A program made the position numbers and the translations under genes. A stretch of DNA of 64,000 nt from Sulfolobus sp. A20. Lineage in GTDB: Archaea > Thermoproteota > Thermoprotei_A > Sulfolobales > Sulfolobaceae. Within the stretch, counting starts at the first letter, position 1. The number at the start of each line of letters is the position of its first letter. The notes under the pieces were generated by a model. That model was not told the origin of the DNA. It saw nothing but the letters and a program-made list of their open reading frames with translations, and ran no database searches. Below are positions 11,537-36,938 of the stretch, piece by piece. Location of the stretch: NCBI RefSeq assembly GCF_001719125.1, contig NZ_CP017006.1, positions 1,240,001 to 1,304,000 of the forward strand, read 5' to 3'.

Positions 11537-11583
11537 GACATAGGAAGGACAAGCCTCGCCCTTCAAGGCGGGGAGGAGGTCAG
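11537..11583 (+). repeat. Solo hairpin element, copy 4
   Basis: CATAGGAAGGACAAG, CCTCGCCC, TTCA, AGGCGGGG, AGGAGGTCAG. It is one of the best-preserved hairpins of the family and lies in the gap between soxE and soxF. The upstream GGAAGGACAAGCCTC also occurs at copy 7. Confidence 0.8.
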
Positions 11584-35745: not shown

Positions 35746-35747
35746 TT

Positions 35748-35830
35748 GACAAAGGAAGGACAAGCCTCACCTTGGGGTAAAGTTTTTAAGTGAAGGAAGA
35801 TCATTGGGGAGGAGGGAAGCCAAAAAGGGG
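35748..35830 (+). repeat. Hairpin element copy 7, broken by extra sequence
   Basis: GACAAAGGAAGGACAAGCCTC matches copy 4 (CATAGGAAGGACAAGCCTC), but the stem is expanded: CACCTTGGGGTAAAG, ~20 other bases, then GGGGAGGAGGGAAGCC in place of GGGGAGGAGGTCAG. It leads straight into the structured segment below. Confidence 0.5.
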
Positions 35831-35835
35831 TAATG

Positions 35836-36031
35836 AGAGTGTGTTCCTACTCCTCAGTACATATCCCCAAGTCTCGAGGAGGGTGGAGTGAGGGAAAAGG
35901 GATAGGGGTAATTTGGCTGAAGATCCAGCTATCGCTGGACGAATGGAGCGGGCTCTAAAGCCCACTAGCTATGAAGTGGTGAAGGCGGTAAACTTGTGAA
36001 CCGCCCTAAGGGAACACTCTAAGGGGAGGAG
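35836..36031 (+). ncRNA. Structured RNA candidate / tnpB 3'-end (omegaRNA) remnant
   Basis: Successive perfect hairpins: CTCCT...AGGAG (35850-35882), CCAGC-TAT-CGCTGG hairpin (~35925-35939), GGGCT-CTAA-AGCCC (~35950-35963), GGCGGT...ACCGCC (~35984-36004) and ACACTC...GAGTGT (36014-36035). One frame also reads DPAIAGRMERALKPTSYEVV...VNL-stop (35924-35999), which looks like the low-complexity tail of an archaeal TnpB, overlapping the RNA as in IS200/IS605 elements. No nuclease domain is left. The family call is an inference; the stems are seen directly. Confidence 0.5.
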
Positions 36032-36309
36032 TGTGTGGACAACAATTTCATTCACCTCCATAAAATTCAATTTTATTCCAACATATGCCAATAGATTTCG
36101 AGTAAATTGTGTTGTAGAAGAATATTTTTAGCCATCTCATCGTTGTGTTTCTTGTTAAGTTAGGTGAGTATTAGGAAATCAAACCCATCCATCTTCTCGC
36201 CCTAACCCTAAAAATACTTTTCCACAATAAAGAAAATTCAATTTATATCAAAACAACCAAATTATTGTCCACACATGGAAGGTTTATGAGTTTCCCTATT
36301 TGGCATGAT
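36032..36309. mobile_element. MITE-like insertion-sequence remnant B
   Basis: TGTGTGGACAACAATTT at 36032-36048 and its near-perfect inverted copy AAATTATTGTCCACACA at 36259-36275 (16 of 17 bases) enclose 244 bp. Homology with 11712-11810 on the left and 12220-12377 on the right shows it is a version of the same element with the middle deleted; similarity continues to GGCATGATG at ~36309, so the outer right border is uncertain. It abuts the structured segment exactly, with the TIR forming part of the last hairpin. Confidence 0.6.
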
Positions 36310-36322
36310 GTGGACTAGGAAT

Positions 36323-36766
36323 TTAGAGAAGTATGATTTCACTAACGTTAAAACCTTTCTTATTGAGAAAATCGTAGAACATCTTGTCTAGAGTTATCAA
36401 TGGTATTTTGGTAGAAGCATATGAGGAATATAATATAGCATCGAATATATCGTTCCAACCCTCACTTATGATTTCATACACTAAGTTTAAGTCTTCCAAG
36501 GTGATGAAGTTAACAGTGCTATTTATGTAGAATAATCCTTTAATTGCTTCTTCCGGTATTTTCTTTAACTTGAGTTTTCTCACCTCTTTCATTATAACTG
36601 CAATAAGTTCTGTTAACATTAGGGAAGGGTAATAAATCCTCTTTCCTTCCAGTAATCTTTCATCTATCCCTTTAACTTTAATACCTACAAAAGGGAGTAG
36701 AAAAGAAGTGTCAACTATTAATTCCGAGTGATTTAGTAATCTCTTCTCCAACCTCTTCAGCCTCAT
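36323..36766 (-). CDS. vapC: VapC toxin, PIN-domain ribonuclease
   Basis: 147 residues, PIN fold. The first catalytic Asp is Asp19 in LIVDTSFLLPFVG, an acidic residue is in MLTELIAVIMKE, and further Asp residues are in GWNDIFDAILYSS and PLITLDKMFYDFL, matching the three or four acidic metal ligands of PIN RNases. It forms a toxin-antitoxin pair with VapB upstream. The ATG at 36766 overlaps vapB by 56 bases; the PIN domain itself starts ~15 codons later, so a shorter form from a TTG within the overlap is possible. Confidence 0.85.
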   Translation of the reverse strand: MRLKRLEKRLLNHSELIVDTSFLLPFVGIKVKGIDERLLEGKRIYYPSLMLTELIAVIMKEVRKLKLKKIPEEAIKGLFYINSTVNFITLEDLNLVYEIISEGWNDIFDAILYSSYASTKIPLITLDKMFYDFLNKKGFNVSEIILL

Positions 36767-36938
36767 CAGCGTCTATTTCTGCCCAATATTTTGTCGGCTT
36801 TTTAAGAGGAATAAGCGAAATCTTATCTCCTTCCTTAATGACCATCAACAAGTCTCCCTCTTTAATTTTCGTTTCTTCAACAAGTTCCTTAGGCAAGTAT
36901 ATAGCGAACTTTTTCCCTACTCTTAGAATCTTAACCAT
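36711..36938 (-). CDS. vapB: VapB antitoxin, AbrB/SpoVT type
   Basis: 75 residues. The N-terminal swapped-hairpin domain reads KILRVGKKFAIYLPKELVEE, TKIKEGDLLMVIKEGDKISL; the acidic tail (AEIDADEAEEVGEEITKSLG) would bind VapC. It is the usual partner upstream of the PIN toxin and probably represses its own operon. A TATA-like CTTATTATTC lies ~29 bases before the ATG. It stands at the edge of the mobile-element scar near tRNA-Ala. Confidence 0.85.
   Translation of the reverse strand: MVKILRVGKKFAIYLPKELVEETKIKEGDLLMVIKEGDKISLIPLKKPTKYWAEIDADEAEEVGEEITKSLGINS

Follow-up and report, generated by a model that had tools for sequence, protein, structure and literature searches.

In the current view, TnpB keeps the transposon that encodes it from being lost, by cutting donor sites that the element has vacated. 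Shortened elements that rely on machinery in trans are reportedly known from work by Zedaveinyte in 2024 on the minimal IStrons of clostridia, which are bacterial and include a group I intron. In archaea, Haloquadratum carries non-coding palindrome-associated transposable elements (PATEs), of which 52-bp terminal-only forms are known (PMC3119063). Intergenic RNAs left by transposon rearrangement, which stem from the distal part of an open reading frame in the transposon, are described from S. solfataricus as the RNA-257 paralogs (Martens 2013, PMC3674436). Sense-overlapping RNAs (sotRNAs) are described from haloarchaea (Gomes-Filho 2015, as cited in PMC12817955), and processing sites are reported for S. 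acidocaldarius Saci_1941 (PMC12817955). We analysed a 64,000-nucleotide stretch (hereafter the window) of the 2,688,317-bp chromosome of Sulfolobus sp. A20, in which 196 bases at positions 35836-36031 had been read as a solo omegaRNA, a guide RNA left behind by a lost IS200/IS605 element. These bases very probably belong to a decayed, non-autonomous IS200/IS605 element, of the kind termed a PATE or miniature inverted-repeat transposable element (MITE), that kept its left end (LE), an omegaRNA region derived from the tnpB 3' end, and its right end (RE).

The family shares with the Haloquadratum PATEs the near-terminal palindromes of IS605-type elements, the absence of terminal inverted repeats (TIRs) and a short targeting oligonucleotide (PMC3119063). 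The PATE paper predates omegaRNA and draws no omegaRNA link for the segment that PATEs keep, whereas the Sulfolobaceae segment has a covarying fold across genera. In an incomplete literature search, which returned work on PATEs and on transposon-derived RNAs, we found no published statement of a full omegaRNA within PATEs.

The 196 bases make up the core of a ~285-bp repeat present in ~19 genome copies, the A20 copy counts resting on search results. The true limits of the window copy are ~35751-36030 on the + strand, further to the left than the segment first singled out, and its parts are as follows.

35747..35750, + strand: TGAC target motif, the putative target-adjacent motif, adjoining the left side of the element; the motif stands ahead of the LE in almost every copy
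35751..35790, + strand: LE, like the LE of full tnpA-tnpB elements
~35764-35778, + strand: subterminal palindrome of the LE
35777-35789, + strand: GTAAAG-TTTTTAA in the LE, resembling an archaeal B recognition element (BRE)/TATA box and a putative promoter
35806..35855, + strand: helix H1 of the omegaRNA region (5' arm 35806-35817, 3' arm 35844-35855), with one internal mismatch
35858..35992, + strand: degenerate 3' omegaRNA domain, helices H2-H6, matched by covariance model R1 (79 bits, E 1.2e-19)
35922..35999, + strand: remains of the C-terminal tail of TnpB, frame-shifted, DPAIAGRMERALKPTSYEVVKAVNL followed by a stop, matching the tail of intact TnpB in relatives
36000..36030, + strand: RE remnant, aligned with the RE of other copies (..GGGGAGGAGGTCAG)
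36031..36275, no strand assigned: unrelated ~240-bp MITE of family B, with TIRs (GTGTGTGGACAACAATT) and many genome copies, sitting on the RE of the window copy

When relatives were searched with an A20 copy, the leftmost 50 bases of the repeat and its rightmost ~185 matched ~1.57 kb apart, on either side of DNA with genes for a Y1 TnpA (~137 aa) and a TnpB (~427-441 aa); Pfam gives Y1_Tnp, OrfB_IS605 and TNB on the full element. The A20 repeat and these tnpA(Y1)-tnpB elements have their ends in common, and subterminal palindromes form LE and RE hairpins across the family, with the RE hairpin reduced in the window copy. Since the LE and the right part flank tnpA and tnpB in relatives, where the right part extends over the 3' end of tnpB, we conclude that the repeat is an IS200/IS605 element minus its genes. 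No transposase gene lies within the A20 repeat or the related mini-elements, which are multicopy (~19 in A20, 41 elsewhere). An IS607 origin was set aside because the relatives carry a Y1 tnpA.

The original prediction is correct as to the origin of the segment, although not as to any use of the window copy. Full IS200/IS605 elements in several genera of the Sulfolobales carry the 3' end of the segment, which corresponds to the tnpB-3'/right-end (omegaRNA) part of such an element without tnpB. The predicted frame, running from D-P-A-I-A-G to Y-E-V-V, was found at 35922-35999, where it continues with K-A-V-N-L before TGA, and it is the TnpB C-terminal tail, as had been suspected. Intact tails in relatives read ..QPVVYRWTNGAGWV..APTSYEVMRMKAVNHKPMNR.., and an 8-nt deletion shifts the frame in the window copy. 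As a separate observation, the 33-nt right end AACCCTCGCCCTTTAGGGCGGGGAGGAGGTCAG recurs without change in Archaeoglobales, Desulfurococcales, Thermococcus, Thaumarchaeota and other archaea (L277-L308).

First thought to be a solitary remnant, the segment instead belongs to a family of mini-elements, of which it is a single copy. The covariance model R1 was built from 23 sequences, with the window copy left out and two other A20 copies included, and gave 107 matches (19 of them in A20), spread over 23 of the 31 genomes of Sulfolobaceae. Among 80 fetched loci outside A20, 41 lack tnpA and most of tnpB and follow one design: an LE with a promoter-like box, a spacing of 113-147 nt before the 3' omegaRNA domain, the RE and a putative guide. 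Full or near-full tnpB without stops is present at 14 of the 80, and ~8 more are full length with at least one stop in the search alignment, some of which are possibly the normal terminal stop; ~22 loci are thus full length altogether, and the remainder are fragments or unclassified. Intact mini-elements outnumber full transposons among the loci examined from Sulfolobaceae. They have also multiplied recently in relatives, as in S. tokodaii, where nine mini-copies are 96.3-100% identical and stand alongside full elements. In gene insertions in relatives, joining TGAC to the base after GTCAG restores the Band_7 and Gpr1_Fun34_YaaH frames; such exact TGAC/flank empty sites show that the element inserts on the 3' side of TGAC and makes no target duplication, in the manner of IS200/IS605 elements. 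The insertion site of the window copy is readable on the left side only.

Still smaller elements occur as well. At window positions 11540-11583, a 44-bp end-only element (ATAGGAAGGACAAGCCTCGCCC..GGCGGGGAGGAGGTCAG) follows TGAC, its LE and RE fused at the palindrome, and 32 similar matches were found in 10 of the 31 genomes. These elements resemble the 52-bp terminal-only PATEs of Haloquadratum.

The consecutive hairpins that first drew attention to the segment hold up in part: short perfect stems are present, but the + strand fold is no better than chance (z -0.33, with 72 of 200 shuffles as good; z +0.48 for the full-length window element). On the - strand the segment folds better than its shuffles (z -3.66). 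Most intact relatives reach z -3.3 to -5.4 on the + strand, with one at -0.95. We rejected the idea that the hairpins are part of the adjacent repeat B, as B begins at position 36031 and carries TIRs of its own. Because the single-sequence + strand fold of the window copy is uninformative, we turned to comparative data. Seven helices find support in an alignment of 23 sequences drawn from full elements, tnpB fragments and mini-elements, in which 94% of cells pair. Cells changed on both sides number 66, against 24.4 (standard deviation 4.5) in shuffled alignments, none of 500 shuffles reaching the observed value, and against at most 22 when the partner is slid by 1-3 columns. An extra 5' helix, H1, falls in the zinc-ribbon codons of tnpB in full elements; its arms pair better within each mini-element family than across families, though the zinc-ribbon context is gone. 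This suggests, short of proof, selection for the RNA in mini-elements, with the bias that the 5' arms of H1 were chosen by best pairing. Loss of the reading frame was dropped as proof of RNA-level selection, since the frame is preserved in most recent mini-copies elsewhere.

At Rfam gathering thresholds, the window yields only a tRNA. At E 4e-8 to 7e-6, which is short of the gathering score, the family sot0042 (RF02656, haloarchaeal sense-overlapping RNA) matches along its entire length L086, L101, L100 and two A20 copies, a set that includes a full element and mini-elements besides the two A20 copies. Like TnpB omegaRNAs and sotRNAs, the predicted RNA of full elements lies over the tnpB 3' end and ends at the RE, with the full-length though sub-threshold sot0042 match; unlike them, it is also present in mini-elements without tnpB. 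In addition, Rfam HgcC (RF00062) matches the tnpB-3'/right-end region at L101:407-529, L086:1835-2010 and A20 1445202-1445303. The end of the HgcC consensus resembles an IS605 right end (..CGcccUUuAgggCGggGAGGAGGUCAG), and HgcC may be a family of omegaRNA type.

The family very probably arose when tnpA and the bulk of tnpB were lost. From the anatomy of the elements and known TnpB biology, we suggest how intact copies may work. Wherever H1 and the LE box could both be located in a mini-family, H1 starts ~20-42 nt past the box; with the BRE/TATA-like character of the box, this makes plausible a transcript that starts near H1 and passes through the omegaRNA into the right flank, which would serve as the guide. 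TnpA supplied in trans would move the mini-element, and TnpB in trans, loaded with the mini-element omegaRNA, would cut the emptied TGAC-guide donor site, with repair restoring the copy. On balance we favour this scheme for intact copies, by a modest degree of confidence. The window copy would no longer work in this way, given its lost helices, its missing right tip and a genome without TnpA and cognate TnpB.

Several points weigh against this account of the elements. None of the sot0042 matches reaches Rfam's gathering score, and for the window copy there is no match at all. The covariation structure was partly read from the same sequences on which it was scored, which makes the shuffles and slides controls and not a blind test. 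Since the TnpB tail frame survives in most recent mini-copies, their structure could be partly inherited from full elements. Finally, the existence of the 44-bp end-only elements means that the omegaRNA may be dispensable for mobility or persistence, which weakens any idea that it is required for mini-element spread.

Alternatively, the mini-elements may be neutral deletion derivatives in which the tnpB 3' region is retained only through the adjoining RE and the RNA has no role. We consider this a serious possibility, if a somewhat unlikely one. It would account for the end-only elements without a tnpB 3' region in 10 of 31 genomes, for the persistence of mini-elements in genomes without TnpA or cognate TnpB, and for the decay of the A20 copies. 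It accounts less well for the fact that several mini-families with different junctions retain about the same 3' segment, or that H1 differs between families yet remains paired after loss of zinc-ribbon coding.

It is improbable that the RNA was co-opted as a trans-acting antisense or regulatory RNA, like the tnpB-derived RNA-257 paralogs of S. solfataricus. Those paralogs resemble the A20 family in their origin from a distal transposon open reading frame, and come from a close relative. They differ in their source, the resolvase-type (IS607-like) ISC1904, and in their proposed antisense role. The copy number and decay of the A20 family fit a mobile element, and no conserved location or antisense target turned up, no search having been aimed at either.

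The family looks dead in A20, as we found neither a Y1 TnpA nor an intact cognate TnpB in the genome, where tnpB survives as broken pieces. Among the A20 copies aligned, L007 and L014 alone retain a nearly complete fold. In the window copy H3, H5a and part of H4 are missing, and in alignment with other copies neither the terminal GTCAG nor the original guide is recognisable in its RE (36000-36030). These losses, together with a + strand fold no better than shuffles, mark it as a relic that is probably dead. The proposal of a usable omegaRNA thus fails for this copy, which is degenerate and has had its guide-bearing tip displaced by another MITE, and A20 lacks the machinery to employ it. That a stand-alone omegaRNA is now active in A20 with a TnpB in trans is very improbable despite the fold of L007 and L014 and one unrelated 290-aa TnpB-like frame, in a genome with no Y1 TnpA or intact cognate TnpB and with the window copy short of helices and RE tip. 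That frame (L106, A20 1045464-1045652, - strand) has a TNB domain and RuvC-like IDLG/LED/DRDFNA motifs, is unrelated to the TnpB of the repeat, and is possibly a domesticated or viral TnpB.

Family B, whose member sits on the window copy, has TIRs and, in some other copies, 8-bp target duplications. It starts right after GGA/GGGGA of an IS605-type end at three places (window 36031, window ~11713 and L049), which may be chance. The Haloquadratum PATEs are likewise preferred targets of small elements (PMC3119063). At L152:1737-2538, ~800 bp between perfect TIRs contain a 236-aa DDE-like frame with a weak DDE_Tnp_IS66 match below cut-off; this is likely the autonomous partner of family B. Two short overlapping frames at window 36323-36938 (- strand) form a candidate PIN-toxin/AbrB-antitoxin (VapBC-like) pair, as judged by eye.

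The element family ties the Rfam sot0042 and HgcC RNAs to one right-end structure. We tentatively propose, as an idea that may well fall short, that the Sulfolobaceae mini-transposons are mobile omegaRNA genes, each with an LE promoter, a scaffold and a site-derived guide, that parasitise both proteins in trans, TnpA in order to move and TnpB in order to be retained. If true, mini-elements with a guide RNA but without genes would show that the retention service of TnpB can be shared in trans and is open to cheaters, and they would provide natural guide-RNA sets for testing retention in trans.
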